64,000 nt of DNA, taken from the NCBI GenBank assembly GCA_918797485.1, contig CAKKNE010000003.1:4526001-4590000 (forward strand), in the 5' to 3' direction. The notes below the pieces were generated by a model that saw only the letters and a program-made list of their open reading frames with translations, was not told where the DNA came from and did no database searches. The position numbers were made by a program, and so were the translations under genes. Origin of the DNA: Pelagomonas calceolata. Lineage: Eukaryota; Sar; Pelagophyceae; Pelagomonadales; Pelagomonadaceae. The stretch's first letter is position 1, and each line of letters begins with the position of its first letter. Below, piece after piece: positions 1,119 through 35,682 of the stretch.

Positions 1119-2156
1119 CTATGGCTCGCTTGCGTTGGTGGCCACAAGTAACGGATACATCGCAAAGATCTCACGAAGGCGGCGGCTGAAGTCGCGCAGG
1201 ATCGGCGCGTTCCGGCGGTCGCGCGCGTAATACGCCCGCCGCATCGCCGTCCGGTTCCGTAAATCGTCGAGAACGACCCAGTTCTTGTGGCAGGAATTGA
1301 CTTGGCACGTCGGCCGTTGGTCCAGCCGCGCCAGCTTTTCGATCTTCACGTCGCGGCTGTCCGATTCCTCGATGTAACCGTGACTCACGATGACGTCGTG
1401 CGCCAAGCGAATCAAATCCTCGTAGGTTCTCTGGTGGTAGTGAACGATTGCGAGGCCCTCTGCTTCCGGTGCGGACCGGTTGTGCCAGGCATGGCTCCCG
1501 AGGTTAAAGAATCGCCGTCGGTAGCGTGCCCCACTGTAGATCTGCTTATGCACGCCCGCGCGCGACATCTTGGCATGCTCGCCGTCGGTCGGCGGGCCGC
1601 GTTGGATCGCATCGACGTCGAACGCCCACGCCGTGCGCAGCGTGTCCGAGACGCGCGCCGGCGGGAGGCCGAGCCGCGACGTCGTCACGTCGGGCGCGCG
1701 CGCGCCCTGTGCCACGTGCGCGACGAACTCGTCGGTGTCGACCTTGATGATCCAGTCGTATCGCGCCTTGATCTCGTCGATCCAGCGCGCGAGGTTGTCT
1801 TCGATGTGGTTCAGATCGACGAGGCTGTGGCGGAGGTGGATGGGATAGCTCGCCGTCACGTCCTGGAGGTGGTCTTTTTGGGCGCCCGTGCTGCCGTCGA
1901 ACACGTAAAGGTGCTCGAAACCGTACACGTGCCCGTGCCACGCGAGCCACCGCGACGCCAGCGGCCAGTCGTCCTTCGTCATAATGACGAGGGCGACCTC
2001 GGCGCGGGACGCGCACGCCGGAGCCGTCACGACCGACAGCCTGGATTGCCGACCGACCAAGATGCCCAGTCCCAGGGCGATGCCCAGTGCCGACGCTGCT
2101 ATTATTCTCCAATGGGTAATGCCTCGACACGACGACACACTGGCGGCTGCATGCAT
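1119..2156 (-). CDS. Type II membrane glycosyltransferase, GT92/GT2-like
   Basis: A 345-residue protein. The chosen start is the first Met that places a hydrophobic anchor (about residues 17-35) near the N terminus, as in Golgi type II transferases; the frame is open further upstream, but those residues come from repeat DNA. The lumenal part begins AEVALVIMTKDDWPLASRWL, typical of the GT92/Glyco_tranf_2_4 group, followed by HLYVFDGST. The metal-binding acidic motif is DTDEF at about 140-144. HYHQRTYEDL and the Cys pair near the C terminus are also typical of this group. The likely role is transfer of a sugar from a nucleotide-sugar to a secreted glycan; donor and acceptor cannot be read from sequence. 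No intron. R1 sequence lies about 130 bp upstream. Confidence 0.75.
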   Translation of the reverse strand: MHAAASVSSCRGITHWRIIAASALGIALGLGILVGRQSRLSVVTAPACASRAEVALVIMTKDDWPLASRWLAWHGHVYGFEHLYVFDGSTGAQKDHLQDVTASYPIHLRHSLVDLNHIEDNLARWIDEIKARYDWIIKVDTDEFVAHVAQGARAPDVTTSRLGLPPARVSDTLRTAWAFDVDAIQRGPPTDGEHAKMSRAGVHKQIYSGARYRRRFFNLGSHAWHNRSAPEAEGLAIVHYHQRTYEDLIRLAHDVIVSHGYIEESDSRDVKIEKLARLDQRPTCQVNSCHKNWVVLDDLRNRTAMRRAYYARDRRNAPILRDFSRRLREIFAMYPLLVATNASEP

Positions 2157-2284
2157 CGTTCTTTTAAACCGTCGAGATGATGAATATATCCCCAAAAGGC
2201 ACACGGAGCTCCACACTCTGTTTCCCCCTGCATCGCAAAAATGGACGCTCGTGTCCAGGGGGAATAGAGAAACCCTGGTAGCGT

Positions 2285-2677
2285 AAGAGTATGTCGCAGC
2301 GTTATGTAGAGTAGCAGGGTCCCAGCACACCAGCCAAAGGCTGTGCCTACCTACGGTACCTCACGGTACCTACGGTACCTAACTACGAGAGTGTTTTATA
2401 GCAAATTGATACATCGTAGTGCAACGTAGAGAGAAACCTACTAGCCCTCCCTACCCTAGATATGTATCTCCCACTCTCTAAATTTGAGTCTATACATCGA
2501 GTGTCTATCGCACTACGGTGTAAACACAATTCAAGTTCAACTTGAAGTTTGCTATAAAACACTCTCCGAGGCTCGTACTACTAGTAGTAGTTCGGTTGGC
2601 CCAGCCTTTGGCTGGTGAGCTACGAGCCTGTAGGACCCTGCTACTTTACATAACGCTACGACATACTCTTGCTAAGG
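2285..2677. repeat. Two R1 copies head to head
   Basis: A reverse, truncated R1 copy (about 2285-2420) abuts a forward copy (about 2428-2677), making an inverted pair. The reverse copy carries an inserted run of TACGGTACC units at 2343-2382. The forward copy has insertions of its own (AAGTTCAACTTGAAG near 2532; CTACTAGTAGTAG near 2578). Just beyond, 2698-2722 is a tandem GGTACC palindrome array. Confidence 0.7.
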
Positions 2678-2850: not shown

Positions 2851-4315
2851 ATGCGCATCGCTCCCCTCGTCGCACTCCTTCTTCCCGGCTGCCGCGGCGG
2901 TGGCAAGGCCTCCAAGGCGCTGCTGCGGCAGTTCTGCGCGCGCGGCCTGCTCGCGGTGGACGATAGGCGTGGCGACGCGTGCGTCGATGCAGCGGGCACA
3001 TTCGCGGGCTGCCCGCCGGGCTGCGCGGCGACGACGCGAGGCGGCGGCGGCGCGCGCTGTGTTCACAAGAAACGTCCCTGCGTGGCGCCGGCGCGGACGG
3101 CGTGCGCGCGCGACGGCTGGTGGCTCGAGCAAAGCGACGAGGCGGCGCGCGGCGACGTGTGCCGCAAGCCCGGCGGCGGCTTCGAGTGCCCCGCCGACTG
3201 CGAAAAGCGGAACGCGACGTGCGTCGGCGGCGACAGACGGCCCTGCCGGTCGGCGGCGCGGCCGCCCCGGCGCGCGTGCGCCGATTGCGCCGAGGCGTGG
3301 GACGCGCCGCTCACGGCGGGACCGGCGCTCGCGCGGCGCGTCGACGCGGAGTTCGTCGTGAGCCACTGCGGCTACGACCTGAGGTGGCTCGCCGACGCGA
3401 TGGCGGAGCTGCGCGCCTGCGGCGTCGACGTCCGGCGCACGACCGTCTACTCCAAGTGCGGCCGGCCGCCGCGCAACGCGCCGAACGGGTCGATCCTCGA
3501 GACGCTGCCGAACGTCGGGCGCTGCGACCACGCCTACGCGATGCACGCGGCGCGGCGGTACGACCGCCTCGAGCCGCTGGTCTTCTTCCTCAAGGACTCG
3601 TCGCGCTACGGGTCGCGCGCGGACTACCGCCGGCTCAACGTTGGCCTCTGCGGCGTCGCGCGCGCCGCGGCGGGGCCCGTCGGCTTTGGCTGCGGCCGCC
3701 GGCCCTACGTCGACGGCTCCGCGTACCACTGGGCGCCCGCGCTGCTCGCCTACAGCCTCATCGAGGTCCACGCGCACGCGTGGGACCAGGCGGCGCGGCC
3801 CGCGGCGGCGTTGGACTTCTTTGGGCCGTTCCCGACGCTGGGCGCGCTCCTCGCGGCGACACCTGGCGTCCTGCGCGCTGACGAGCTCCAGCGACGCGCC
3901 GTCGTGCCCGTCTGCTACGGCGGCACGTTCGCCGCAGTGTGGATATCATTGAGCGCGTAGTGACCCTTTCGCCACGACGCCATCGACGAAGGCACCGTAA
4001 TTTTAAGTTCCGCACAGGTTTGCCGCGCGCCGGGCCTCCGTCCGCCGCCGCGCCCGCGCCGCCTACGCGGCGCTCGCGGCGCGCCTTACGCGTGGCGACA
4101 ATATCATGGAGGGTTCCATGGTCGAGAGGCTCTGGGCAGCGCTCCTCGCGCCGCGGCACCCCGACCCGCACGCGCGGGCCCGGCACCTCTGCGCTGCCAC
4201 GCGCCACTTCGCCCGGCCCCACGGGTATGCCGGCATGCTCGTCGGCTGCAGCTGCTCGGCGCCCCGGGGGGACTTGCGGACCTGCGCCGCGAGGCATTCG
4301 CGCGTGGCGACGTAG
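2851..4315 (+). CDS. Secreted cysteine-rich DUF3431-like protein, two exons
   Basis: Exons 2851-3926 and 4018-4315 encode 457 residues. A short signal peptide (MRIAPLVALLLPG) is followed by two copies of a cysteine-rich repeat (GDACVDAAG..CPPGC and GDVCRKPGG..ECPADC, each ending in PC). A DUF3431-like domain follows: EFVVSHCGYDLRWL near 168 and LPNVGRCDHAYAMHAARR near 219, then FFLKDSS. DUF3431 is thought to have a glycosyltransferase-like fold. The same architecture opens the large protein at 32533-35682. The exon join was fixed by that paralogue: joining after GGCAC and resuming at GTTTGCC gives GGTFAARRASVRRRARAAYA, which aligns with GGAFGAGREAIRRTPAATYA. Without splicing the frame stops at 3958. 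Confidence 0.7.
3927..4017 (+). mobile_element. Introner-type intron, 91 bp, GT-AG
   Basis: The intron begins with the duplicated target GTTCGCCG, and the downstream exon begins with the nearly identical GTTTGCCG. The element between has degenerate terminal inverted repeats, CAGTGTGGATATCA at the left and AAGTTCCGCACAG at the right. It is the shortest copy in the window and keeps only a trace of the internal CGCCATCGACG motif seen in longer copies. The donor lies in the target duplication; the acceptor AG is the last two bases of the element. Confidence 0.75.
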
Positions 4316-4535: not shown

Positions 4536-4640
4536 ATTATATTACGACCGAAATCCATGGTTCTGGGTGGCCGATTTTGGGGGTCTAATGATTTCTAGTA
4601 TATTTCATGACTAGGGGGGTATTTCGAATATATAGTTGAG

Positions 4641-5470: not shown

Positions 5471-8101
5471 TTATTGCATTGAGCGCCGCGCCCGCTTTCG
5501 GCTTCGCACGAGGAGCGCGCACGCGAGGCCGGCTGCGATGCCCGCGACTCCGCGTGCTCGCGAGAAGACACTCGGTCGATCTCCGCCGCGGCGGATGTAG
5601 GCCATAACCTCGTCGCCGTGCCGCCTGGAGGCGAGGGCGCACAAGGCCGAATTTTTGCGCGATCGTTCGTACCGCCGCGAGCGCGTGATGTGCGCAAATT
5701 GTGCGCCGGCGTCTGCCTCGGCGAGGAAGACGGCGCTCGTCGCCGTCGCCTCCTGCTCGTCGGGGCCCCGCAGCGTCCAGGAGGCGTAGGGAAAGGCGAG
5801 CTGGTCGCGGCGGTGTCCCCAGCGGCGGTATTCGTCAAACCAGGCGCAGCCGAGCGCCGAACTCTCGTTCCGGTAGAGGTCGCGGAGGTGCCATTCGCCC
5901 TCAGCCAGCGGCGCGTCGCGCGGCAGGCCCGCCGCAGCGTACGCGCGGAGCTGGCTCAGCGCGGCATCCGAAGCAAGGCCCAGCAAGTGGACGCACCGCG
6001 CCTCTTCGTGCGGCGTCCCGCGAGCCGGGTGCCGCGGCGACGTCCACGCGGAACCGCGAGCGAGCAGCTCGTCGTGCAGCAGGCGCCACGTCCACTCGAG
6101 CGTGCTCGGGTGAAGCTTGGCGTCGAAGTAGAGCAGATACCGCGCGTTCGGGACGAAGCGGTGCGCGAGCATCTTCGGAATGCGGGTGTTCTGGGCGGCC
6201 GTCGCGAACGGTTGAAGTGCCTTCGGGACACGCACGACGCGCCACGGTCCGTGGTCAACGCTGTGGCACCGCCGGGCGCCGTGCATCGCGGCGATGCGGC
6301 GAGCCGCCGCGAAGTCGACGAGTGCGATCCAGCAGCTCGCCGCGCCCAGCCTATTCTCGAATTCTAGCAGCCGCGCGTGCTTGGGTTCCAGCGTTTTAAG
6401 GTGCTCCAGCGAGTCGATAGAACCAAAGAGCGCCGTGACGACGGCAAGCGTGCAGCGCCGCCCGCCCGCGGCCGCCGGCGCGTCGAGCGGCGGGTTGATC
6501 GACGAAAATGAGAGGCTTCCCGAGCACTCGCCGTCCCGCGCGCCGTCGCCTGGCGTGTTGCCCAGTTTCGCCCTCAGCGACGCCCTCAGCGACGATCTCA
6601 GCTCCCCCGTGTCCGTGATGTCCTCGACGACGTAGATCTCCCCGGTCGTTGGATTCCGGTGCACGCCGCGCTCGGCGACGACTTGAACCACGCGCGCGCA
6701 CGAGATCCGCCGGAAGCCGCGCGACACGACCGCCTGGATTTGCGTTGATTCAACAAACGCCGCGTGCCGCGCGTCCGCTTTGTCGAGGTCGAGGCAGACG
6801 CTCGGCATGAGGTGCGAGCAGTCCTCGCAATGTCCGAAGCTGTGAACCGCAAGGCTCGAGCCCGCGCGTGGTGGTGGTAGGCACGCGGCCAGCCCCGCGC
6901 CGAAGGCGGCGTGCGCCGCAACGACGTCGCGGCACAGCCTGGAAAGCGCCGCGTCCGTCCGACGCCGCGCGTCGTGGGGGAACGTGAGCGCGAAGATCAG
7001 GCCGAGCCGGTCGGCGACGTCGACGTCGAGCATGAGCGAATCGCGGCCCTCGGCGCGTCGCGCGAGCGCGACGAGCGCCGAGAAAGACGAAAACTGCGTG
7101 CCGACGAACACGGCGGCGCGGAGACCGAGCTCGAAGTCGACCTGGCCCTTGACGTCGTCGCCGCCGTCGGGCCCGGATGCCAGCGCCTCATCGACGTTCC
7201 CCAACGTCGCCTTGGCGTGCAGGCTAAAGCGCGGGCAGCTTCGATGCTTCCGAAGGTCGGCGTCGATTGCCCTGATGCGCGCGCGGTCCGCCTCGCCCAA
7301 GACGAAGACGTCGAGCGTCTTCAACGACGACCGACCGCGCGCGACACCAGCCAGCGCCGTGCACGCAGCGCGCGCGTACGCGCGCGCGTCGAGGCCATGC
7401 GCGCTCCGCACAAAGTCCTCGTCCGCGCGCCAGTGGATCGCGACGGCCGCGTGCTCCTTCGCGCGCCCGGTCGCCGCCGCGAGGCGCCGTGAGACCTCGT
7501 GCGCGGCGCGACGGATGCGCCGCGCCGATGAAAACGCCGCGTTGACGCTCGTCAGGAGGTCGAGGCTCCGGCGCGTGTCAACCACGAGCTTGGTGCAGCA
7601 GTCCTCCTCGCCGCCCAGCGACCAGACGCCGCCCCGAAGGTCGTAGCGCCGCGCGACGTCGCCGCCGGGCCCGAGCTGCGACGCGGTCGTCGGCCAGAGC
7701 GCGCCGGCGAGCTCCGGCGCGCGCCCCTCGCTGCGCGTGTCGACGACGCAGACGCCCGCCCTTCGGAGGCCCTCTACCACCCTCTCACGATCGTAGACGG
7801 CGTCGAACGGGACCGTGCCTTCGTAGTCCTGGTAGCAGCCTGCGCGGTAGCCGCACCGCCGCCGCGTTCGGAGAAAGGAAGGCAGCTCGACAGCCGCGCC
7901 GAGCAGCGCCGCGATAACCGCGTCCTGGACGATGCGCATCCGCTGGTTGTTCAGGCCCTTGCGCACCGCCGGAATTCGGACGACGCCGCTCACGCCTGCA
8001 CCGCAGGTTGTTGCGGCGTGGTAGGCCGGCGCAACGGCCGGGCAGGCGGGCGACGGCGCCGCTGCGGCAGCCGCCGCCAGCGTAAAGAACACCGGCCCCA
8101 T
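5471..8101 (-). CDS. O-fucosyltransferase-like and DUF616 fusion, membrane anchored
   Basis: 876 residues, no intron. A signal peptide is followed by an O-fucosyltransferase-type (GT-B) domain: GLNNQR at 49-54 and AIHWRADEDF at 221-230, the HxRxD/E signature that binds GDP-fucose in this superfamily. A second domain (about 545-790) has the DUF616 pattern: TALFGSIDSLEHL, then NTRIPKMLAHRFVPNARYLL, YFDAKL, and WFDEYRRWGHRRDQLAFPYA. DUF616 includes plant glycosyltransferases such as MUCI70. A C-terminal transmembrane helix (about 845-862) with a basic tail suggests a lumenal body held by a C-terminal anchor. Two transferases in one chain suggest consecutive sugar additions. The last 60 codons are copied at 28770-28955. 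Confidence 0.75.
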   Translation of the reverse strand: MGPVFFTLAAAAAAAPSPACPAVAPAYHAATTCGAGVSGVVRIPAVRKGLNNQRMRIVQDAVIAALLGAAVELPSFLRTRRRCGYRAGCYQDYEGTVPFDAVYDRERVVEGLRRAGVCVVDTRSEGRAPELAGALWPTTASQLGPGGDVARRYDLRGGVWSLGGEEDCCTKLVVDTRRSLDLLTSVNAAFSSARRIRRAAHEVSRRLAAATGRAKEHAAVAIHWRADEDFVRSAHGLDARAYARAACTALAGVARGRSSLKTLDVFVLGEADRARIRAIDADLRKHRSCPRFSLHAKATLGNVDEALASGPDGGDDVKGQVDFELGLRAAVFVGTQFSSFSALVALARRAEGRDSLMLDVDVADRLGLIFALTFPHDARRRTDAALSRLCRDVVAAHAAFGAGLAACLPPPRAGSSLAVHSFGHCEDCSHLMPSVCLDLDKADARHAAFVESTQIQAVVSRGFRRISCARVVQVVAERGVHRNPTTGEIYVVEDITDTGELRSSLRASLRAKLGNTPGDGARDGECSGSLSFSSINPPLDAPAAAGGRRCTLAVVTALFGSIDSLEHLKTLEPKHARLLEFENRLGAASCWIALVDFAAARRIAAMHGARRCHSVDHGPWRVVRVPKALQPFATAAQNTRIPKMLAHRFVPNARYLLYFDAKLHPSTLEWTWRLLHDELLARGSAWTSPRHPARGTPHEEARCVHLLGLASDAALSQLRAYAAAGLPRDAPLAEGEWHLRDLYRNESSALGCAWFDEYRRWGHRRDQLAFPYASWTLRGPDEQEATATSAVFLAEADAGAQFAHITRSRRYERSRKNSALCALASRRHGDEVMAYIRRGGDRPSVFSRARGVAGIAAGLACALLVRSRKRARRSMQ

Positions 8102-9360
8102 CTGGGCAATAATTAAATAGGCCGTGGGCAGCCCCTGCCTCTAGACTAGAATACTAGAATGCCTACGCGAGTCCCCTGCGCGAGCGCTGGACGTCGGATC
8201 CGCTTTGTTGCGTTCCTCGTGTACTCTGATGCATCTGTGCCGCTTGGCGCAGCCCCGGAGGCGCTGCGTGCGTTGTGAGAGGCCTAAGTGCACCTAGGCT
8301 CATCGGAGCCAGTTTTCGCCGGCGGCGCGCGTTTCCGCCGCCCGCGACCCTCCCCCGGCGTCCACCGAGTCGCGGCGGCCGGGCCACAGGCCGGCGGTGC
8401 TCCACGGCTCGGTTTCTTCGACTTGCGCGGCAACGAATTGGTTGCATATACCCGCTGCGCGCAGGCCTCCTCGCGGCGCGTTGAACCTCGCCGGCGCCGG
8501 CGGCCAGTCCGAGCCCGAAACAAAGACAAGAGACATTCTTGCATCTTGATGGCGGGTCGAGCCCGGAACACGGACGGCACCCATCCTCGGGCATCGAGTG
8601 GTGCGCGTTCGGTGGTATCCGGCCCGTTTCCTGAAGTTTTGCCGCCGGCATGGCGGCGAGCCTCATTTGCCTGCGACCGGACCGACCCTACGGAGCTCGC
8701 GGAACTACTCGTCGGTCTCGACCTAGGAGGCGTCGGGGACGGCGGCATGCCGCCCCTCGCAACCTTCGTCGGGCCGGCCGAGCTTTCGTAGGCCCTCCGA
8801 ATCGCCGGGGCATCCATTGAACCCATTAGTTCCGTTCCGACGAGTTATTGTCAAGGGTCGTCTGGGCTGGGTCGGAGCCGAGCTCCCCACCAAAAAATAT
8901 GTGTCGAGGGCATGCCCTCAATCATTGTCAAAGGCCTGGTGTGCGAGGGCATCTCTCTCAGCACTTGATTTCCGGCTCGTCGTAAAAGAGGAGCCAGCGG
9001 CCAGTTCCACATCCTGACGGGGGTCGTCCCAAAAAGAGGGGGGGGGCGTGCGAGTCCATGCGACTCAGCCCTTGCGTCCTAGTCCAGCCGGACGGGTGGG
9101 CCCGGGGGGAGCGGGAGGGGTACGGGGAACCCTGCGACGTAACTAGCCTGAGCCTAGTAGTAAGTAGTAAAGTGAACTTGGTGCACCACAGAGCCACTTT
9201 TAGCCTGTCCCGCCATAGCTTTTTGTACGATTACCGGCGGCTGCTCGTCTAGATACCTGACCACGTTTGGTTAGATAGGGTTCGTTACGGATCCGAGTCC
9301 CCGGCCCGGGGCCGCGGCGGCCGCTCGTACATTAAGCAAACCATCTGTTTTGGTTTTCTA
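8102..9360. other. Intergenic, GC-rich, no gene supported
   Basis: 8160-8830 is GC-rich and open on both strands for up to 180 codons, but the translations are Arg/Pro/Ala-rich without a recognisable domain, and neither strand is convincing. 8830-9360 shows no gene; it has a run of G at 9040-9047. Confidence 0.5.
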
Positions 9361-10007: not shown

Positions 10008-10280
10008 TAACTACCGTAGGTACCTACGGTACCGTAGGTACCGTACTATAGTACTAGTAGTAGTAGCCTGAGGGTCCTAGCTCACTGGCACCAGCCAGAG
10101 GCTGCCAGTGGGCCAAGCCAACTACGAGAGTGTTTTATTATAAACTGGTTTACACTGTAGCGTCGGTAGACACCCAGCGTATAGACTCAAACTTAGAGAG
10201 TGGGAGATACATATCTAGCCTATACTAGTAATCTAGGGTACCTACGGTAGGAAGGGCTAGAGGTTTCTCTCTCAACCTTG
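10008..10280 (-). repeat. R1, reverse copy, with GTACC-type array
   Basis: About 10075-10275 is R1 in reverse orientation, preceded by a TACGGTACC array at 10015-10050. It ends about 90 bp before the start codon of the next gene, so it may contribute to that promoter. Confidence 0.65.
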
Positions 10281-10366
10281 ACGCCAGCCGGCAGTCCGTC
10301 CGCTGTAACTCTACTCGAGCGTCAATTTCTGCCGGGCCGACACGTCGCATCCCACACGGATTCAAC

Positions 10367-25476: not shown

Positions 25477-26616
25477 ATGGCGCTATGTTGGCTTGCTTGC
25501 TTCGCTGCAGTCATGATTTTCCAGGCGGGTATGCGCCAGGGTGCTGCGACTCCTGATGGAGGCCGCAATGAACCACCGTTAAATATGTCTACCGCCGAAT
25601 GCGAGGTGGCCGCTTGGGACCAATCCTGCAGGATTTGGCTGAGTGGGACACCGGCACTGGCCAGTGCGCTTATGGGGCGTGGGCACGGTGCACGCACCTA
25701 TATTTGTGGCGGCAATGCAAGCAAAGTCCCGCGGGCCCAATGCTATTCACGCGGAGAAAGATTTCGATGGCTTAAGCGCGCGTGGCATTTGCTGAAAGGC
25801 ACGACGATCCTACTCCTTGGCGATAGTATTTCCATGGAGCACTACTTCGCACTGCTTTGCGAATTGCGTGAGTTTTCGCTCCTTGGAGGAAGTGAGGTGC
25901 CGCCACTGGTGCCGCCACGCCTCCAAATCGTCAATGAAAGTGGTGTGAGCATGCACTGTGCACGCTTTGAGAAGGCGCTTCCATCCGTCTGTTATGCGCC
26001 AGAAGATGCGCTTCACTGCGGCCTCTTTAATACTATTGGGCTCTGTCCAATGTTTAACAAACAATGCCGTTTAAAGCCAGAGGTTCCATGTTTCAAGCCT
26101 GCACCACCCGGCTCGCGTGGCTACATCCTCGAGCGGCTGTCCAGAATATTCATGGCCGCAGCGGGTGATTCCCGAGAACTACTTATCGTCATGAACGCGG
26201 GATTGCATTATTCGCACAACTTGACACTCCTTCATGATATCACTGCAATGCAGCTCAATCTATTTGCTAGTCTGCCACAAAAACTTCGGCCACGCATCTT
26301 CTGGCGCGAGACAGCTGCACAGCACTGGAATACAAGTGCTGGCATTTATATGGGTAAAATCAGCAGCAGGCAGTGCGTTAACCTCCCACTAAGCATGGTG
26401 CGCGACCCTGGTACCAGCAAAGCGAACATTTTCAACCGCGCAACTGAGCCGGTGGTCTCAGCCAGTCGCGATGTGACCATACTGAGGACGTGGGCACAGT
26501 CGGCCGCATTCTGGCGAGGCCACAAAAACGGCGACTGTACGCACTACTGCCTCGAGTCGGGCCTCTTCGACAGCTGGACAGACATGCTGTGTCAGGCGCT
26601 GCTCAGTAAAATTTGA
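25477..26616 (+). CDS. TBL/PC-esterase-like polysaccharide O-acyltransferase
   Basis: 379 residues, no intron. A short N-terminal hydrophobic segment acts as signal or anchor. ILLLGDSIS (Ser near 117) is the GDS motif, and DCTHYCLESGLFDSWTDML (about 353-371) supplies the D-x-x-H motif of the Trichome Birefringence-Like/PC-esterase family. Plant members transfer acetyl groups onto cell-wall polysaccharides; fungal and animal members include Cas1-type sialate O-acetyltransferases. Several Cys and N-glycosylation sequons fit a lumenal location. Base composition is lower in GC than in most neighbours. It forms a same-strand pair with the next gene, a distant paralogue. Confidence 0.7.
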   Translation: MALCWLACFAAVMIFQAGMRQGAATPDGGRNEPPLNMSTAECEVAAWDQSCRIWLSGTPALASALMGRGHGARTYICGGNASKVPRAQCYSRGERFRWLKRAWHLLKGTTILLLGDSISMEHYFALLCELREFSLLGGSEVPPLVPPRLQIVNESGVSMHCARFEKALPSVCYAPEDALHCGLFNTIGLCPMFNKQCRLKPEVPCFKPAPPGSRGYILERLSRIFMAAAGDSRELLIVMNAGLHYSHNLTLLHDITAMQLNLFASLPQKLRPRIFWRETAAQHWNTSAGIYMGKISSRQCVNLPLSMVRDPGTSKANIFNRATEPVVSASRDVTILRTWAQSAAFWRGHKNGDCTHYCLESGLFDSWTDMLCQALLSKI

Positions 26617-27353
26617 CCTAATTTGGCCTAGATGTGCCTGTCTCCTAGGTTGCCATTAACCGGTTAATAACCGGTAATTTGCCCATTATCACTCCTCGGA
26701 GGGGATCCGGGGTAAATAACCCGCTCAATAACCCGACGGGTTTTCGACTAAACCCGTTTAGTGAGATTAGCGAAAGACCCCCCCGGAAGAGCGGATTGAA
26801 GTGAACTTACTTTAGGTTCACCCCGGTGTTTTTACGGCGCCTACTTAGCGCCGGGCTTGATCCACTTGGATAAGCAGAAAGATACGGGATATAGGGAAAT
26901 ATCAGCTACGGGCCCAAGGCAAGTACCAAGTCATGTGGCCCGGCGCGGCCCAGGCCCGCGCCAGTGGCCCGTGAGGCCCCCTCCCCTACCCCTCTATAAG
27001 ATCCTGAGGTAAATAACCCGTACTAACCGGTAATTACCCGGGTTATTAACCCCGGGCCCGGGCGGCGCCAGGGGTAAATAACCCCTCAGGTAAATGGCAA
27101 CCTAGCCTGTCTCTATAATCGCGCTGGTAAGGTAGCAGGGTCCTGGCTCACCAGCCGAGGGCTGGGCCAACCTAGCTGCCAACCTAACTACGAGAGTGTT
27201 TTATAGCAAATTGTTGTTACACCGTAGTGTCAGAGACACTCGCTGTACTGTATAGACTCAAACTTAGAGAGTGGGAGATACATATCTAAGGTAGGAGGGC
27301 TAGTAGGTTTCTCTCTCTAGTAGTGCCAAAAACATGAGCTCACTTAGACGACG
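26617..27353. repeat. Repeats R5 (reverse), R2 copy 2 and R1 (reverse)
   Basis: 26800-26884 is R5 in reverse. 26952-27105 is R2 copy 2, differing from 22451-22598 by few bases and a CCCGGG insertion. 27133-27320 is a nearly complete R1 in reverse that ends about 30 bp before the next start codon. Confidence 0.7.
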
Positions 27354-28676
27354 ATGCGGGGCAACCGGCCCTTCGACCAAAGGCTGCGTTTTGCTTCTGG
27401 CGTAGTGCTGCTGGTCATTTCAAGTGCGCTGTTCGCGAGTCCGGCGTTTCTCAAGGCATTTGCCAAGTTACTGGTCACTCGCGCACCAAAACCTGGCGCT
27501 GTGAGGTCGGCGGCGCCTTTCGAGGTATCAACGTTGTTCCGGTGCAACGAGGCGGAGGTGGCACAGCATGTGGCGCGGGTCGAGTTGAGCACGTACCAGT
27601 GGGAGCGCATGAGGCGATCGAATTTGCCAGCGCCATGGTCAGATGTTCCGCAGCTAAGGTCGTTTCGCGAGTGCTTGTCGCAAACGGGCCACATGCCTTT
27701 TGGCACTGTGATTTCGCAGGACCAGCGGCTCGTGACATGGACCCCTGGGAGGAACGTAAGCACACCTCACTCCACGATGCACGGCGGCGGCGTTGAGTGC
27801 GTGTCTAACAGTATTGGACCAATTGCCGAAGAACTACTATCGAGCCCTACGATTGATGATTTGGAATGGGTCTGGGGCGACACTGCAATGGCAACCATGT
27901 CCGTCGACGACGTACGCCTCGCCCTCAAACATGCTGAGGTCGCGCTAATCGGCGACTCCCTCACGCGGCAGCAGTTTTATTCGCTATGCTGCCTCCTGGA
28001 CATGTTTGACGCTGAACCAAAGCGAATACACTACCTTAGTGTCGATATGATATCGCAGATGCAGCATTATCACGCCGAGGTCATCAACTCAAGCGACATC
28101 GTCCTCTTCGGCATCGGCCACCATATGGACAGGTCCAAGGACTTCCACGCGACGTACGAGGAGATCCTTGACACTGTTTTCAACTACGCTGCGGCTCGGC
28201 GGAGGGAAGGCGCTGCCATGTGGGTCCGGACACGTTGCCCGAGGCATTATCTCGCCGGCGATCCCCAACCGCCAGACATGAGGGCGTACCGGCTCCCAGG
28301 CGACACAAATCAGCCCCCGTGCCACAATTTTACGGGCCCCGCGACGAACCTTACCTACGCTGTCTTGAACAGATTCGATGCCACCGGCGTCCCCTTTATG
28401 AACTGCCAACTCCACAAGCGTCACCAGGCCATGTTGGTGAAAGGTCGCAAAGATGTTCACTTGCTCGACACAGAGGCGCTCTCGTTCTTCCGTCCCGACC
28501 AGCACAACAGAAACGGGTCGGTGTACTCCCGAGGCTCACAGGGGAAACTTCCATGTGATCTATCCCACTACTGCTACGCCGGATCTGCTCCCAGTGTCCC
28601 TGACACGTGGAACATCCTCTGGCTCAACAGAATAGTTGCTGACTGGAAAAAACAAGATCGGAGCGTCGCACGGTAG
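27354..28676 (+). CDS. TBL/PC-esterase-like protein, second copy
   Basis: 440 residues, no intron. A type II anchor (about 13-32, FASGVVLLVISSALFASPAF) precedes the SGNH-like fold. VALIGDSLTRQQFYSL (Ser near 201) is the nucleophile motif, and CDLSHYCYAGSAPSVPDTW (about 400-418) carries Asp and His of the triad. The arrangement is that of plant TBL polysaccharide O-acetyltransferases. The identity with the preceding gene is limited to these motifs, so the pair is old or of separate origin. An R1 copy stands directly upstream. Confidence 0.7.
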   Translation: MRGNRPFDQRLRFASGVVLLVISSALFASPAFLKAFAKLLVTRAPKPGAVRSAAPFEVSTLFRCNEAEVAQHVARVELSTYQWERMRRSNLPAPWSDVPQLRSFRECLSQTGHMPFGTVISQDQRLVTWTPGRNVSTPHSTMHGGGVECVSNSIGPIAEELLSSPTIDDLEWVWGDTAMATMSVDDVRLALKHAEVALIGDSLTRQQFYSLCCLLDMFDAEPKRIHYLSVDMISQMQHYHAEVINSSDIVLFGIGHHMDRSKDFHATYEEILDTVFNYAAARRREGAAMWVRTRCPRHYLAGDPQPPDMRAYRLPGDTNQPPCHNFTGPATNLTYAVLNRFDATGVPFMNCQLHKRHQAMLVKGRKDVHLLDTEALSFFRPDQHNRNGSVYSRGSQGKLPCDLSHYCYAGSAPSVPDTWNILWLNRIVADWKKQDRSVAR

Positions 28677-28769
28677 CCTGTGCCCTCGGCGCTTGGGATT
28701 GAGCCGCTGGTCCAGCACCGCACACATGCAGTCGCGTCCACGTGAAATAAATGACCTGATTGACTTTAC

Positions 28770-28955
28770 GAACGATCGCGCAAAAATTCGGCCCTCTGCG
28801 ACCTCGCCTCCAGGCGGCACGGCGACGAGGTTACGGCCTACATCCGCCACGGCGGAGACCGACCGAGTGCCTTCTCGCGAGCACGCGGAGTCGCGGGCAT
28901 CGCCGCAGGCCTGCGTGCGCGCTCCTCGTGCGACGCCGAAAGTTGGCGCGGCGTC
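28770..28955 (+). pseudogene. Duplicated 3' fragment of the fucosyltransferase/DUF616 gene
   Basis: In one frame this reads ERSRKNSALCDLASRRHGDE, then VTAYIRHGGDRPSAFSRARG and VAGIAAGL. The native C terminus at 5488-5670 reads ERSRKNSALCALASRRHGDE and so on. Identity is high over about 180 bp, then the copy diverges. It has no start codon of its own and lacks both catalytic domains. It probably arose by duplication of a gene end. Confidence 0.8.
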
Positions 28956-29642
28956 CCATGCCACAGTGTGGGTAACATACGGGGCACACTTGCCCTGCAC
29001 GTCCATTTGTATGCGCCTATAATAGCCTAAATTTCAAAATGCATCCATATTATGTACATATTTATTTATTTATCATGATTTATTTATTTAAGGGGCCGGA
29101 ACCCGATTAAATCGGGGGCTGTAGTGCCTCCCCATTAATAGCCTAAAGGGCCAAACTAGCTGCGAACGAGCCTAAGGGGATGCCTCACCTTCTGGCCGAG
29201 TGTGGGGCCCTGAAAAAGCGAGGGGGCGGAATGGCCACCACGCGAACGTCGCGCCAGTCACGGTGGCGTTTCGTTTTGGGCACCTCACCCCATCTCGAGG
29301 GGGGCACCTCCGTGGCAAGCTAGTGTCGCCGTGTGCTTAGGATGCCCCTGGGACCCAGCAAACGCCATTTGGCCCTTTAGGCTATTAATTGAAAATCTCA
29401 CCAATTTGGGTGCCGGCCCCGTATTTATTTATTTATTTTATTTATTTAGGGCCCGCCGGAACTCCCCGAGTCGGCCCAGAGGTCATCGGCTGCTGACTCA
29501 GGCTTATCCCCGCCTTCGCGTTCGAGCATCTTAATCTCGACAAGAACACGGACACGTTCTTTGCGGCTTCAGGAATCCGCGACCCACGCGGGACTTGGCC
29601 GGGGCGTTATTATTTCAATGATATTTATCTATACTCGTATTA
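28956..29642. other. Intergenic with ATTT-type low-complexity tracts
   Basis: Simple repeats of TTTATTTA occur at 29058-29096 and 29422-29446. The sequence between the tracts shows no gene. Confidence 0.6.
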
Positions 29643-30491
29643 CTACTCAGTTTCGCTGGGGGCAGCGGTGCCTGGGGCTGCCGCAGCAGCGTACGTGTCA
29701 ACGCGGTTGAGTTTGGCCTCTTCGTTCGGAAACCAGTCGGTGCCGAGTTTAATGCGCGTCAAGCGCGATTGCGGAGCCCGGCGCACGTAGAAGGCAATAG
29801 AGTCGTACAAATGGATGGCGTGCAAACTGCCACCGAAGATGCTGGGTGCCGGTTGCGTCGCGTCCCGCGTCTTAAACCAGTAGTCGTGCATTGACTCAAA
29901 GGCGCTGCTTGGTAGCTTCGTGAAGTCGCTGGGCGCCTCGCAGTATGATTTGTCGCCTCCGCAGCGCGCCATGACCATGAGGTCTTCGACCACGTAGACC
30001 GATTGCGGCGCCATGCAAGAGTCATCGTCGAATAGTGCCGAGATGGTCGCCTTTACCATCGCCGCCGTGTGGCCGCCGTCATCGATGATGACATCAAAGG
30101 GTCCGTGCCTTCTGCACACCTCCTTAAGGAATGCGTTGTCGAAGACGGAACCAATTTCTACGAAGACCCCGGCACTCTCGTTCCGGGATCGCGCGCACCG
30201 CGGGTCGATGTCGACTCCGACGTAGCGCAGCAAGGTACCATAACACGTCTTCCAGGCCACCGCAGACCCACCGCTTTGGACTCCGACCTCCAGCATACGC
30301 ACTGTAGACGTCCTGCCAAGTGGTGATGGTATGTGGTGCGAATATGTATTGGCATATTCAAGCCAGCGGTCGAGGCCCCGCGCTCCATTGTAACTCTGCC
30401 AGTGTTGTAGAAGAGTGGACCCGTCCCGGCAAAAAGGCTTGGCCGCGCCACGCAGAGCAAGGCTGAGCAGGAGAGGCATCTGCATATTCAT
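29643..30491 (-). CDS. Class I SAM-dependent methyltransferase, MycE/CmcI-like
   Basis: 282 residues, no intron, with a signal peptide (MNMQMPLLLSLALRGA). Motifs run RMLEVGVQSGGSAVAWK (cofactor loop), YVGVDIDPRCA (acidic ribose contact), FDVIIDDGGHTAAMVKATIS and VYVVEDL. The IIDDGGH signature is that of MycE-type sugar O-methyltransferases and CmcI-related enzymes, which bind a divalent metal. A signal peptide on such a fold is unusual and suggests action on secreted glycans. The Ala/Pro-rich tail is variable. Substrate unknown. Confidence 0.65.
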   Translation of the reverse strand: MNMQMPLLLSLALRGAAKPFCRDGSTLLQHWQSYNGARGLDRWLEYANTYSHHIPSPLGRTSTVRMLEVGVQSGGSAVAWKTCYGTLLRYVGVDIDPRCARSRNESAGVFVEIGSVFDNAFLKEVCRRHGPFDVIIDDGGHTAAMVKATISALFDDDSCMAPQSVYVVEDLMVMARCGGDKSYCEAPSDFTKLPSSAFESMHDYWFKTRDATQPAPSIFGGSLHAIHLYDSIAFYVRRAPQSRLTRIKLGTDWFPNEEAKLNRVDTYAAAAAPGTAAPSETE

Positions 30492-30979
30492 CGAGCCTGC
30501 TCGCGCTAGCCAGACACGGACGACTTAGTTTCCATGCATGACATTGTTTACTATAAGTACCTACGGTACCTACGGTACCTCGAAGCTTACCGTAGGTATC
30601 GTCCGCTAGGTCGTCTACAGGGGGTATAACTATATGGGGAGTAGCAAGAGTATGTCGCAGCGTTCTGTAAAGTAGCAGGGTCCTAGCTCACCAGCCAGAG
30701 GCTGGGCCTAACCCATAAAGTAAGTTCACTTTATTTATTCCAACTTGAACTTGACTCGGAGCCTGAGGGGGGGGGGGGGGGTGGTGTAAAAACAGCCAAA
30801 TTTTAGGCCTTCCTTAATCATTTGTTTGTTTGTTTGTTTGTTTGTTTGTTTATCATGATTTATTTATGGCTTTATTTATTTAAATCTGCATGGGGTCACG
30901 GTATTCCGCGAATCTTCATTCTCAGCGAATCCCGAATCTCGAATCCCAAAAATAAGAGAGTATGTAAGATCGTGACCGC
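30492..30979. repeat. GTACC array, R1 tail and microsatellites
   Basis: 30557-30600 is an array of TACGGTACC units. 30642-30712 is the tail half of R1 in reverse. 30766-30781 is a G run. 30822-30850 is a perfect tandem TTTG microsatellite followed by TTTATTTA tracts. Confidence 0.75.
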
Positions 30980-32047
30980 CTATTCGGACCTTTGTTTTGA
31001 GTCTCCGACCTTCACGGAGAGAAGACGGGCACGACCAGCTGCACGAGCGTGCCCGGGGTCGAAGCATTTCACCGGGAGAAGAGAACAGTTGTCGTGCAAG
31101 TGGCACAGCTGCAGCCCAGGAATATTCCCGCCCGTGACCCAGCGCTCAACCGACGCCGCGTTCTCGATGTATGATATCGTCTTGCGGATGTGGTGCTTGG
31201 TCGCGTTGGAAAGGCCATAGCTACGCACCAGCGACGCTGGCGCCATTGCTTGCCTTTCCTTGTCATTGACGGGGTCAGTGACGTGCAGCATGGCCGGGGC
31301 ATCGAAGGTGGCCTTGAGACCGAGGAAGCGCAGGATCGGGACGAAGGCGGAATAGTTCCGGTTCAGTGTCTCGTAGGTTACGTACAGCGCCGGGACATGT
31401 GCCCTCAGCAGGAGCTGCAAGGCGCCAGCGAACATGCCCTCGTTTTTCTGGCGCACCAGCACCATATTGTGCAGGTCAGCCTCACTGAGATTGAAAGAGT
31501 CGTCCCGGCCGCGGTGGACGATGTTCTCCGTGTTCGACGACGACATCGACATTGCCATTGGATTGATCCGCTCGAGCACGACAACCCGGATGCCCGCCCG
31601 TCGTAGGTACGGGATGTGCTCGCGCAGAGAGAGGCCCCACGACGCGCTGACGCCACAGCACTGCCAGATGAAGCCGACCGCCTGGTGGCTCCGCGTTACC
31701 CGCAGGCTTGAGTTTCCGTTGCGCTGCGCCTCGGCCTCGTCAAAGGGGCAGACCCCCGCCGTCGCGCCGCGCAGGCAGACGCAGTCGCGGAAAGCTGCCC
31801 AATCCGCGTCACGGAAGCCGAACATGCTGTCTAGCTCCTCCTCGGGGGGCGGGCGCGGCAACCCTTGCAGTGCGCACATGTCGCGGCTGAACATCTCGTT
31901 ACCCATGATAACGCCCAGATATGTCATCACCTCGCGGAAGAAATGCGTGCCACTGTGCTGGTGAGACAGCAACGCGAAACGAATGGGATACGCGCCGCAC
32001 TGCGTAGCACACCACATCAGCGACATCAGTTGAGGTACGCTGCCCAT
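30980..32047 (-). CDS. Sulfotransferase-like P-loop protein
   Basis: 355 residues from the ATG at 32047. YPIRFALLSHQHSGTHFF carries the 5'-phosphosulfate-binding loop, in the degenerate form SHQHSGTHF, and ALYVTYETLNRN resembles the conserved YE segment of sulfotransferases. The central part (RVVVLERINPMAMSMSSSN) sits where the 3'-phosphate-binding R..S motif is expected. The fold prediction is moderate; substrate probably a carbohydrate, by context. N-terminal signal or anchor of about 20 residues. No intron. Confidence 0.6.
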   Translation of the reverse strand: MGSVPQLMSLMWCATQCGAYPIRFALLSHQHSGTHFFREVMTYLGVIMGNEMFSRDMCALQGLPRPPPEEELDSMFGFRDADWAAFRDCVCLRGATAGVCPFDEAEAQRNGNSSLRVTRSHQAVGFIWQCCGVSASWGLSLREHIPYLRRAGIRVVVLERINPMAMSMSSSNTENIVHRGRDDSFNLSEADLHNMVLVRQKNEGMFAGALQLLLRAHVPALYVTYETLNRNYSAFVPILRFLGLKATFDAPAMLHVTDPVNDKERQAMAPASLVRSYGLSNATKHHIRKTISYIENAASVERWVTGGNIPGLQLCHLHDNCSLLPVKCFDPGHARAAGRARLLSVKVGDSKQRSE

Positions 32048-32050
32048 CAC

Positions 32051-32532
32051 AGCGCAATGGCTGTCGATGTAGAAACCCGCGAGCTCAGGAGGCCCGGGGC
32101 TCGATCGCTAGTGATTTAGCTTTAGCTTTGTCTTAGACTCTACAGCCTTAGTGCTCGTCAGGTTGCTCCAAACAGCGCCACCTCTTCTGCGTTTCGCCCA
32201 CAGCAACGACGCACGACACGCTTTTCGTTTGGTTAGGGCGATGCACTGGCGGCCGGCGCGAGGATGTACGCACGGTAGAGCAAAGACTCGGCGTTGCTCG
32301 GCTCGGCGCTGCAGAAAGCTAGTAGGAAAACCACGCACCTTGGTGAAATGTAACGTTGCCAGAGCCTGAGTCCATGAGACGGGGGCGGACCCCAAGGTAC
32401 CCATCCACTTTGGCCCCCAAAAGCTACGCCCCGCCTCACGCGTGCACGGGGCAGCATAGTCAGTTGAAATCCTGTGATTGGTTCCGCATCAGGACTGCCC
32501 AAGAGAAGAGATGATGCATAACACTTAAACCG
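32051..32532. other. Intergenic between divergent genes
   Basis: Separates two divergent genes. 32375-32395 (GAGACGGGGGCGGACCCCAA) resembles 22340-22362. No gene recognised. Confidence 0.5.
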
Positions 32533-35500
32533 ATGCACACCGCGCTCGCGGCGTGGGTGGCCGTGCTGGCCGCCGCCCTCGGACAGAGCGAGCCCGCGCC
32601 TTGCGCCTCATCGTTCGCCCTGGAGTCCCACGCCGGCGCAGCCCACCACGGCGACGTCTGCCGCGGCCCGAAGGGCGCCTGGCAATGTCCGCGCGGCTGC
32701 GCGACCAGCGCTACCGGGCCATTGTGCGTCGAGGACGGCCGCCCATGCCGGCGGCCCGCGGCGTGCCTCGGCCGCGCCGCGCTCGTCGCCGGGCGCGGCT
32801 CCCGCGGCGATGCGTGCGTCGTCGCGCAGGAGAAGAAGCCCGACGTGTGGTCGTGCCCGACCGACTGCGCGGCTGTCGCGGCGCCAAGCGACCCTGGCCG
32901 ACGCGTCGCGTGCATTCGCGCCGACGGGCAGCCGTGCGTCTCGCACGCGCGGCGGTCCCCGTGCCGGGACAACGCGACGAACGCGACGGAGCTCGAGTGG
33001 CACGATGAACGCTGGCATGGTGATGTCTGCCGCGAGCCCGACGGTAACTTCCATTGCCCCGTCGACTGCTCGCGGACCCACGGGAGCCGTCCGCCGTACT
33101 GTCTCAAGGCGCGCGTGGCGACGAAGCCGTGCCGTACGAATTTTGGACCCGCGCGGCCTTGGGGCAAGCCGAAGCCAAAGGTCCTGCCCGGCTGGGGCTT
33201 CGAGCAGCCGTACTCGCTGGCCTGCGTCGGCAGACCCTGCGATGTAGTGAAGGCGACGTCCCTGGACATCGTCGTCGCCGCGTACGACTACGGAACGGCG
33301 CCCGTCGTCATGGCGGTCGCTGCGGCGGCGCCGGCGCGCGTCGCGCCGGTCCGCGCGTTCCTCTACTGCAAGGGGCCCGCCGGCTGCGACCCCGCGGACG
33401 TCGCCGCGGTCCGGGCGCTCGAGCGCGTGGCTTCCGTGGAAGCCATCCCATTGCCGAACGTCGGGCGTTGCGACCACGCGTACGCGACGCACGCGGTGCG
33501 GCGCCGCGACGACCTCGCGGACGCGACGTTATTTCTCAAGGACACGACGCCCTGGCACGTCCACTTGGGTTCGATGGTCAACGTCCTCGGCCTGGCGCGC
33601 GCGCTCCCGGCGAACCTCGAGGCGTTCTGCGCGCGCGCCCCTATCTCCGAAACCCTCGCGTTCGAGCTGCCGACGTACGAGTCGGAGCAGTGCTACCGCT
33701 TCGGAAAATGCTACGCCGACGAGTCGTACCAGCGGGCGTCCGTGCGCCCGCTCGGCGCCTGGCTCACGGCGCGCGCGGGCGTCCGCGTCGGCGAGCGCGG
33801 CGTCGCGGCGTGCCTTGGCGGCGCCTTCGGCGCGGGCCGCGAGGCTATTAGGAGGACGCCGGCCGCAACTTATGCGGCGCTCGCTTCGGAATTGTCCGCG
33901 GGCGACTCGCTCGAGGCGGGCCACTTCGCCGAGCGGGCCTGGTTTGCGTTCTTCGGCGTCGCGCGGTTGCCGCCGCTCGTGCGGAACCGCGCCGTCGTCT
34001 ACGCGTTTGGTGATGCCGCCGGCCTGGACCTGCCATCGGACAGAGCGGGTCGTGACGACGGCTGGGACTACCTCTACTTTGTTCGTGAAGACGCAGCCTC
34101 AACGAAAGCGCCGCGCGGCTGGCGCCTCGTCTTCTCGCGCACGCCGGCAACGACCCTCAAGGCCGCGCCGCACCGCGACCCGCACCTCGCGGCCTACGCC
34201 CACAGCCTCTACGTCGAGGCGCGGCCCGACGTTCGCGCGGCCGCCGAGGCCGTCGCGACGGCGCTCTCCGCGGGCGCGTCGGTCGCGTTGCGGCGGCGCG
34301 CCGTCTGCTGTGCGGGCCACCGCGGTGCGCGCGCGCGCCTCGCCGACGAGGCGCTCTTGTGCGGCGCCGGCGCCGGCGCCGGCGCCGTCGCGGCCGCGCG
34401 GCGCGCGGCGGCCCGGTCGCGCGGGCCAGCGTACGCGTCGACCTTCGTCTTACGGAGACACACGGAGGCGGCGGCGGCCTTCAACGAGCGCTGGCTTGCC
34501 CGAATCACGGAGCTCGGTCCGGAGTTCGCCGACGTCGCGCTGATGGCGGCGGCCGCCGCGAGCGGCGGGACCGTCGCGGCGGCAGACGAGGCCATCGTCG
34601 ACGAGCGGCCCGGCGCGGCGCCGGCGCTGGCGGCGCGTCGGCGTCAACCGCCCGCGACCTGGGTCTTCCTCGCGACCGCGGATAGTAGTGAGGCGTGGGC
34701 CGCGATGGCGAAGCGGGCCGTCGCGTCGGCGCGCGCGCGGACGTCGCTCGAACACATTGTGTGCGTCTTCCGCGGCGGGCGAGACGCGGCCCTGGCGCGC
34801 TGGCTCGAGGGCGCCGGCGTCGAGGTGCTCTACCACGACGCGCCGGCGTGGGCCGGCCGCGTGTCCGAGGCCCTCTCGACGAAGGCGGGCCGCGACAACG
34901 TCCGCTTCTCGCCTTTGTACGAGTCGGCGTCGGCCCTCGCCGCCACCTTTCTCCGCGTCGACATTCCGCTCCTGCTGGACCCCCGGAAGCACGGCGAAAT
35001 TGTATTATACGCGGACACCGACGTCGCGTTCCTGCGCGATGTTAGAAGGGAGGACTTCGGCGCGGGCGCGGACCCGGCCTACTTCACCATGGGCGCCGAG
35101 TTCATGGAACCCCCCATCTACGGCAACGCCGGCGTCATGCTCCTCAACTTAATAGGTTTACGACGGACGTACGCGGCCTTTGCGGACTGGACCTTCTCCG
35201 ACGCGAACGTCAGGCGGGGCCTGCACTTTGGCAAGTTCGGTCCCGGCGACCAGGGCGCCTACGCCGAATTCTACGAGGGCGCTTTTGCCGTCGTGCGCTC
35301 GCCTTCCTTCAACTGGCGGCCGTACTGGCGCGCGCGGTGGGCCGACCCGGCGATCCTCCACTTCCACGGGCCGAAGCCCGACGATTACAGAGAAGCACTG
35401 GGCGGCGGCGCGGCGAAACCGCCCCTCGCGTGGCGCGCCATCCTCAAGCGCTGCCGCGGCCGCGGCGGCGCGCCGTGCGCCGACTGGCTCCGGATTTATG

Positions 35501-35682
35501 ATTGTCTGCCTGAGGAGGTCGGCGACGTCCCGACGCCCGCGTGCGCCGCGCTGTTGGCGCCGCGGCGCGGGCCGCCCGCGGGCGCCGCATTCGCAGCGGT
35601 CCTCTTCCTTCTCGGGTGCTGGTGCTCCCGGCGCCTAGGCGTCCTCCCGCGGTGGCGACGGAGCCCATCCACGGCCCTTTAA
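32533..35682 (+). CDS. Cys-rich repeat / DUF3431 / GT8-like glycosyltransferase, 1049 aa
   Basis: A signal peptide is followed by three cysteine-rich repeats (about residues 35-210; for example GDVCRGPKGAWQCPRGC, each closing with C-x5-PC). A DUF3431-like domain comes next (about 238-440): LDIVVAAYDYGTAP, PLPNVGRCDHAYATHAVRRR, ATLFLKDTTPW. After a variable middle, a GT-A domain (about 700-960) has EIVLYADTDVAFL as D-x-D motif, YGNAGVMLLNL, GPGDQGAYAEF and ILHFHGPKP, the pattern of GT8/glycogenin-like transferases. A C-terminal transmembrane helix (about 1015-1032) follows. The N-terminal half is paralogous to 2851-4315. GC content is far above that of its flanks. No intron. Confidence 0.75.
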   Translation: MHTALAAWVAVLAAALGQSEPAPCASSFALESHAGAAHHGDVCRGPKGAWQCPRGCATSATGPLCVEDGRPCRRPAACLGRAALVAGRGSRGDACVVAQEKKPDVWSCPTDCAAVAAPSDPGRRVACIRADGQPCVSHARRSPCRDNATNATELEWHDERWHGDVCREPDGNFHCPVDCSRTHGSRPPYCLKARVATKPCRTNFGPARPWGKPKPKVLPGWGFEQPYSLACVGRPCDVVKATSLDIVVAAYDYGTAPVVMAVAAAAPARVAPVRAFLYCKGPAGCDPADVAAVRALERVASVEAIPLPNVGRCDHAYATHAVRRRDDLADATLFLKDTTPWHVHLGSMVNVLGLARALPANLEAFCARAPISETLAFELPTYESEQCYRFGKCYADESYQRASVRPLGAWLTARAGVRVGERGVAACLGGAFGAGREAIRRTPAATYAALASELSAGDSLEAGHFAERAWFAFFGVARLPPLVRNRAVVYAFGDAAGLDLPSDRAGRDDGWDYLYFVREDAASTKAPRGWRLVFSRTPATTLKAAPHRDPHLAAYAHSLYVEARPDVRAAAEAVATALSAGASVALRRRAVCCAGHRGARARLADEALLCGAGAGAGAVAAARRAAARSRGPAYASTFVLRRHTEAAAAFNERWLARITELGPEFADVALMAAAAASGGTVAAADEAIVDERPGAAPALAARRRQPPATWVFLATADSSEAWAAMAKRAVASARARTSLEHIVCVFRGGRDAALARWLEGAGVEVLYHDAPAWAGRVSEALSTKAGRDNVRFSPLYESASALAATFLRVDIPLLLDPRKHGEIVLYADTDVAFLRDVRREDFGAGADPAYFTMGAEFMEPPIYGNAGVMLLNLIGLRRTYAAFADWTFSDANVRRGLHFGKFGPGDQGAYAEFYEGAFAVVRSPSFNWRPYWRARWADPAILHFHGPKPDDYREALGGGAAKPPLAWRAILKRCRGRGGAPCADWLRIYDCLPEEVGDVPTPACAALLAPRRGPPAGAAFAAVLFLLGCWCSRRLGVLPRWRRSPSTAL

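Follow-up and report, generated by a model that had tools for sequence, protein, structure and literature searches.

Does the crowding of carbohydrate-modifying enzymes on one stretch of an algal chromosome mark a single biosynthetic pathway, or is it a property of the wider region? The question is raised by a 64,000-nt window of Pelagomonas calceolata DNA, C3:4526001-4590000 on contig 3 (C3; 5,385,517 bp) of an assembly of 32,445,274 bases in 8 contigs; coordinates given without a contig are those of the window. Thirteen gene models (g1 to g13) lie between 1,122 and 35,679, each an open reading frame (ORF) or ORF pair with a coding signal or a homologue, and a first-pass annotation had taken them for a glycan cluster of about thirteen genes. 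That observation was partly confirmed and its interpretation partly supported. We give roughly even odds to the reading that a glycan-gene archipelago, in which enzymes that build and decorate surface glycans have been gathered, occupies the final ~1.0 Mb of contig 3 (the block), and that the cluster at 1.1-35.7 kb is the densest islet found there. Over-representation across ~1 Mb is as consistent with a regional property as with a dedicated pathway cluster, if not more so. Genes were taken as unspliced ORFs, and a subset of ORFs with coding signal was scanned outside the cluster (20 upstream and 13 in the window at 36-64 kb). The models are listed here with Pfam E-values unless another search is named.

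1122..2360, minus strand: g1, glycosyltransferase, Glyco_tranf_2_4 (1.2e-5; 26.1 bits against a cut-off of 27.5); hydrophobic segment near the N-terminus by hydropathy
2851..3957, plus strand: g2, shortened paralogue of g13 with a DUF3431-like region and Cys-rich repeats seen by eye (tblastn to g13, 4e-16; to the upstream DUF3431 gene, 9e-21)
5474..8140, minus strand: g3, O-FucT-like + TOD1_MUCI70 fusion (6.6e-7, 29.7 bits against a cut-off of 31.5; 1.5e-19); hydrophobic segment near the N-terminus; one of the genome's two TOD1 matches
10232..13279, plus strand: g4, GT2_4-like + Methyltransf_22 + GT2 (0.0022, well under cut-off; 3.9e-7; 7.5e-15); C-terminal hydrophobic segment by hydropathy; weak PDB sequence matches to GT2 enzymes, best 0.011
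14249..15429, plus strand: g5, GT2-type gene split over two overlapping frames by a short intron or a frameshift (GT2 0.065; tblastn to the g4 GT2 region, 6e-5)
16649..18687, plus strand: g6, Methyltransf_11 + TylF macrocin-type O-methyltransferase (2.2e-8; 1.7e-22; PDB O-methyltransferases, 2e-9)
19180..21813, minus strand: g7, DUF6492-like N-terminal half (only 0.024) + GT4-type C-terminal half (Glyco_trans_1_4, 1.7e-10)
22847..24313, minus strand: g8, Methyltransf_11 (1.4e-6); hydrophobic segment near the N-terminus by hydropathy
25438..26613, plus strand: g9, PC-Esterase, a TBL-like O-acyltransferase (1.4e-7, above cut-off; best stretch just 27 residues)
27348..28673, plus strand: g10, PC-Esterase, TBL-like (5.9e-16)
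29646..30524, minus strand: g11, Methyltransf_24 (5.9e-5; 24.3 bits against a cut-off of 26.3)
30983..32107, minus strand: g12, claimed earlier as a sulfotransferase, family unconfirmed (without Pfam or PDB match)
32515..35679, plus strand: g13, Cys-rich repeats (by eye) + DUF3431-like region (0.0034, from a piece) + possible GT-A domain (by eye)

Searching each protein with profile models gave a supported Pfam family for 9 of the 13 (E no higher than 6e-5 against profiles for glycosyltransferases, methyltransferases or TBL/PC-esterases), seven of which exceed the Pfam cut-off, with g1 and g11 slightly under it. The tenth glycan-type gene is the weak GT2 match g5. DUF3431, a family of unknown function, is the sole family link of g2 and g13, both tied by tblastn to DUF3431 genes; g2 itself had no Pfam match. 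The cluster is real as a multi-family group of glycan-type enzymes in an alga. Pfam recovered the four methyltransferase domains that had been claimed beyond the fusion partner, and also the two TBL-like O-acyltransferases, g9 and g10, which pass the PF13839 gathering score (32.2 and 59.7 bits against 27). Both begin with a hydrophobic N-terminus and carry, by eye, GDS and DxxH, which we take to be the motifs so named in PC-Esterase/TBL proteins. In these features they resemble plant TBL/PMR5 polysaccharide O-acetyltransferases, although g10 had no match to a solved structure (PDB sequence search, E<=0.1). Of the six or more glycosyltransferase families proposed, GT2, TOD1/MUCI70 and GT4-type are over cut-off and GT2_4 and O-FucT just under, while DUF6492 and DUF3431 are only suggestive. 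The sulfotransferase placed within the range was not borne out: g12 gave no Pfam match at E<=10 and no PDB sequence match at E<=1, and the Sulfotransfer_1 gene at 45.2-46.9 kb lies outside. PDB sequence searches with g12, g13, g3 and g10 returned no match at the thresholds used. Single-sequence AlphaFold2 models had a mean predicted local distance difference test score (pLDDT) of 35 for g12 and 38 for the C-terminal part of g13, values too low to base a claim on. An NCBIfam scan contributed no more than weak relatives among glycosyltransferases and methyltransferases, plus a single match at chance level. ARAGORN and Rfam at gathering scores gave no match on the window, and the scanned cluster ORFs contained no recognisable transposase or other mobile gene.

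The cluster is not a tandem array of recent copies. A tblastn comparison at E<=1e-3 links just two pairs, g2/g13 and g4/g5 (29-44% identity); g9/g10, g6/g8 and g1/g4 share a Pfam family at a divergence beyond the reach of tblastn. Neighbouring enzymes belong to different families, as is asked of a eukaryotic biosynthetic gene cluster. Signs of local duplication are seen in the distant pair g2/g13 and in a copied end of g3.

28767..28961, plus strand: relic, inverted copy of the g3 3' end (inverted repeats of 146 nt at 94% and 49 nt at 88%; tblastn 90% over 40 aa)

The proposed limits of 1.1 and 35.7 kb did not hold, since related genes were found 31-46 kb upstream and at 43.5-46.9 kb. On the left, a dynein heavy chain gene (-12.7 to -2.2 kb) is followed by other genes and then by a second glycan group, an islet at -46 to -31 kb where 4 of 10 scanned ORFs are glycan-type: PC-Esterase (2e-5), DUF3431 (3.4e-5) and GT2_4 (7.2e-6), all three just under cut-off, and GT15 (3.3e-9). 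The right flank holds HemD, an AMP-binding gene, Gly_transf_sug, Sulfotransfer_1, ELO, SF1 and actin, including two genes beyond the claimed range.

43541..44425, minus strand: Gly_transf_sug glycosyltransferase (Pfam 1.2e-9)
45218..46903, minus strand: Sulfotransfer_1 gene (Pfam 7.6e-8; also in the genome search)

Enrichment was measured in the block C3:4377006-5385517, which was defined by the repeat family described below as repeat A and covers the terminal ~1.0 Mb of that contig, or 3.1% of the genome. Eight families (PF00535, PF13704, PF04488, PF05711, PF13578, PF13839, PF00685 and PF04765) were searched genome-wide; positions were entered manually from the matches, and those within 3 kb of one another were pooled into one locus. 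Only the best candidates were scored, so the genome-search counts are lower bounds. The block held 17 of 95 merged loci with the window included (3.0 expected, P=6e-9). Because the families had been chosen from the window, the fair count omits it, and 11 of the remaining 89 loci were still in the block (2.6 expected, P=6e-5). This second test bears on the block, not on the 35-kb cluster. By family, and with the window included, the block share was 3/20 for sulfotransferase, 2/3 for PC-Esterase (a search that missed g9 and the upstream-islet gene), 1/6 for TylF, 2/2 for TOD1, 3/19 for GT2, 3/11 for Gly_transf_sug, 2/16 for GT2_4 and 4/26 for Methyltransf_24. Mito_carr, the sole control family searched genome-wide, was entered with one position per gene and was not enriched among the matches listed (3 of 63 gene loci in the block, 2.0 expected, P=0.31). 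A genome search with g13 found three other matches, all inside the block.

Samples of sequence were also scanned. Five block pieces set by an arithmetic rule (24 ORFs) contained GT61, GT2 and a GDP-mannose dehydratase/epimerase once each (among 25 of the 30 families matched), and the 31 ORFs of five 10-kb pieces chosen arbitrarily on other chromosomes contained DUF3431 and DUF5672 once each; both samples are too small for a test. Among 25 of the 47 families matched by the same 31 ORFs there was no glycosyltransferase, PC-esterase, methyltransferase or sulfotransferase. In seven block pieces picked around matches, 5 of 20 scanned ORFs were glycan-type (one merely DUF3431), and others were housekeeping genes. 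Within the block, Methyltransf_24, TOD1_MUCI70 and PC-Esterase, families also present in the cluster, lie together in 33 kb at C3:5062076-5095365, and the GDP-mannose 4,6-dehydratase/epimerase-type gene of the rule-based pieces, for nucleotide-sugar synthesis, is found at C3:4400002-4400688 (piece L059:2-688).

Two repeats were found in the window.

72..679, plus strand: repeat A (query 60-700), from self-comparison of the window and genome search; further window places at 2273-2675, 9366-10278, 13880-13986, 27126-27319, 30642-30713 and 36085-36446
24400..24860, plus strand: repeat B; also at 5115-5347

Repeat A occupies seven places within 0-36.5 kb and three upstream (-46.8, -30.7 and -25.2 kb), and none was found between -25 and 0 kb or at 37-64 kb. 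Genome-wide, with the best 40 of 97 candidates scored, 59 listed matches merged into 40 places, 29 of them in C3:4377006-5385517. Of the 38 merged places of repeat B in the genome, 20 were inside the block; the queries for both repeats were themselves taken from the block. Repeat A has a core of ~210 nt (72-281, 9808-10009 and other copies) as well as longer versions, and may be a non-autonomous transposon or another kind of element.

GT domains add sugars, TylF/FkbM-type enzymes methylate hydroxyls, and PC-Esterase/TBL proteins acylate polysaccharides. In the archipelago reading, the glycosyltransferases would build coat glycans that the methyltransferases and TBL-like O-acyltransferases then methylate and acylate; the families jointly would point to stepwise assembly and capping, presumably in the Golgi and on shared acceptor glycans. 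Fusion proteins such as g4 may couple sugar addition to methylation. Genes of different families lie next to one another, interspersed with a block-concentrated repeat family, with traces of local duplication and in combinations that recur in the block, as Methyltransf_24 + TOD1 + PC-Esterase do at C3:5.062-5.095 Mb. Selection for coat diversity could be the reason for the gathering, and the block could then be a site at which the P. calceolata cell-surface coat diversifies. A defined block enriched in candidate coat-building enzymes supplies genes to test. Unusual fusions were noted in the cluster, g4 (GT2_4-like + methyltransferase + GT2, 10232-13279) and g3 (O-FucT + TOD1, 5474-8140), and elsewhere in the block as a PAN + GT2 + GT4 protein of 1266 aa (L053:3968-7765). 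At C3:5009724-5010854, GT2 occurs with Methyltransf_24, apparently in one 606-aa frame.

Several observations weigh against this reading. Housekeeping genes (dynein heavy chain, HemD, ELO, SF1, actin, RecQ and MIF4G) are interleaved, so glycan genes do not have the block to themselves. DUF3431 is also present on contig 1, and Methyltransf_24 and TylF proteins do not necessarily act on sugars. A second methyltransferase cluster lies at C6:976988-1038860, with seven Methyltransf_24 matches spread over 62 kb, four of them in frames of >800 codons; clustering of such genes is thus not unique to contig 3. The earlier argument that the grouping exceeds chance is upheld for the block by the count that omits the window, but the count for the cluster itself (5 merged loci, scan P=3e-4) is biased upward, as the families were selected from the window. 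For the 11 glycan loci that the block holds beyond the window, the median distance to repeat A is 12.1 kb, against 12.7 kb for random points (P=0.46). Repeat A therefore marks the block rather than the genes, and no fine-scale link between glycan genes and repeat A was found within the block. The GC content at third codon positions (GC3) of the cluster genes is below that of 16 flanking ORFs (median 0.76 against 0.89, P=0.0015) but resembles that of 20 ORFs from other chromosomes (0.75, P=0.54; the 20 are the longer of the 31 control ORFs). Block GC is ordinary, with 23 block samples of 1.5 kb averaging 0.643 against 0.617 for 17 samples from the rest of contig 3. The secretory-pathway location proposed earlier received slight support. 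A strongly hydrophobic 19-mer was present within the first 90 residues in 6/13 cluster proteins, 2/21 flanking ORFs and 5/31 ORFs from other chromosomes, but such a segment anywhere in the protein was found in 7/13, barely above the 7/21 of the flanks and 11/31 of the other chromosomes. The measure is crude, and a Golgi location accordingly rests mainly on the families.

The same evidence has been weighed under other explanations. The block might be a repeat-rich stretch that tolerates duplication and insertion, where expanded families, glycosyltransferases and methyltransferases among them, pile up without functional connection. Such passive accumulation would suit the concentration of repeats A and B, the duplication relics, the interleaved housekeeping genes and the missing fine-scale link between glycan loci and repeat A, but the sole control family, Mito_carr, did not pile up in the block, and the rare families TOD1 and PC-Esterase are also represented there; we regard this explanation as rather doubtful. 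The alternative put forward in the first-pass annotation, a dedicated cluster in which one pathway for one methylated, acetylated and sulfated polysaccharide is held together by co-regulation, draws on the several transferase and decorating families packed into 35 kb, where the scanned ORFs in between revealed no recognisable gene of another kind, and on the adjacency of the two PC-Esterases. It is unlikely given that similar genes extend past both ends and over 1 Mb, that no sulfotransferase was confirmed within 1.1-35.7 kb, that no sugar-nucleotide synthesis gene, transporter or regulator was recognised inside among the scanned ORFs, and that the genes lie on both strands. A shared pathway or a common product would be a supposition in the archipelago reading as well.

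Import of the block from a giant virus or bacterium would accord with the abundance of glycosyltransferases in large DNA viruses, as stated in a review on the giant virus of the pelagophyte Aureococcus (PMC10720644), and with GC below that of the immediate flanks. We consider it highly improbable: GC3 resembles that of the control ORFs, g6 contains a probable spliced intron, and no relatives were found in viral contigs (g4, g6, g7 and g13) or prokaryote contigs (g6) by a method whose reach is limited to close relatives. The idea of a foreign low-GC island was likewise dropped on the strength of the GC3 match to control ORFs elsewhere. Low-GC block samples occur only from 5.26 Mb on (0.53-0.56).

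The archipelago invites comparison with the small outlier chromosome (SOC) of Mamiellales, which in Ostreococcus tauri is chromosome 19 and is called the 'viral immunity chromosome'. Of the 101 ORFs on the O. tauri chromosome, 14 encode glycosyltransferases and 8 methyltransferases; small groups of sugar genes lie next to each other, and expression is altered in virus-resistant lines (PMC5082852). The likeness is functional in kind and extends to over-represented glycosyltransferases and methyltransferases, adjacent small sugar-gene groups, repeats and merged glycosyltransferase domains. The P. calceolata block shows over-representation of these enzymes, counted over eight families, PC-Esterase and sulfotransferase among them, and enrichment of repeats A and B, whose queries came from the block; no transposase was recognised in the scanned cluster ORFs. 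Unlike the SOC, the block is a chromosome end within contig 3 and not a separate small chromosome, its GC is ordinary and not below average, many housekeeping genes lie between, the host is a stramenopile, and a role in virus resistance is only conjectural. The block is not filed as an SOC member, because a separate chromosome and low GC were looked for and not found. That the end of chromosome 3 is an independently evolved stramenopile counterpart, in which the gathering, duplication and fusion of genes for coat glycosyltransferases and decorating enzymes give each pelagophyte strain a different coat for giant viruses and grazers to recognise, is a long shot. A stramenopile gathering comparable with the one in green picoalgae would point to convergence in genome architecture that serves surface diversification.

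The Aureococcus review describes the molecular content of the glycocalyx as little understood, reports that the glycocalyx is lost upon infection, and mentions some resistant strains to which the virus does not attach (PMC10720644). Our literature search found no paper on Pelagomonas chromosomal structural variation, on Pelagomonas extracellular polysaccharide together with glycosyltransferases, or on viruses and surface glycans of pelagophytes, and neither 'glycosyltransferase' nor 'gene cluster' occurs in the main text of the P. calceolata genome paper (PMC9481584). That paper describes the RCC100 assembly as 32.4 Mb in six nuclear contigs plus plastid and mitochondrion, with two large end duplications, between contigs 3 and 6 and between contigs 1 and 5 (PMC9481584). 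Identical sulfotransferase match scores at C3:162257 and C6:3746602 fit the first of these, and identical mitochondrial-carrier match scores at C1:19071 and C5:19055 fit the second. The low-GC putative centromeric regions described there (PMC9481584) are likewise a regional peculiarity of the same genome with repeats of their own. A 1.5-kb sample at C3:3.4 Mb with a GC of 0.46 may be the published trough; the cluster has a GC of 0.54-0.71 in 2-kb steps and lies ~1.1 Mb away, and the trough was dropped as the cluster site.

A probable intron joins the two TylF frames of g6.

18385..18530, plus strand: probable g6 intron, 146 nt, GT..AG, between copies of the direct repeat GGTACAAGTC (sequence reading)

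The last exon of g6 spans ~18531-18687, with the TylF match of exon 2 at 18532-18687; with the C-terminal part present through this exon, g6 passes the PF05711 gathering score (80.4 bits). Introner elements of ~210 bp have been reported for pelagophytes (PMC9481584), and the g6 intron, flanked by GGTACAAGTC, is perhaps akin to them, yet shorter at 146 nt.

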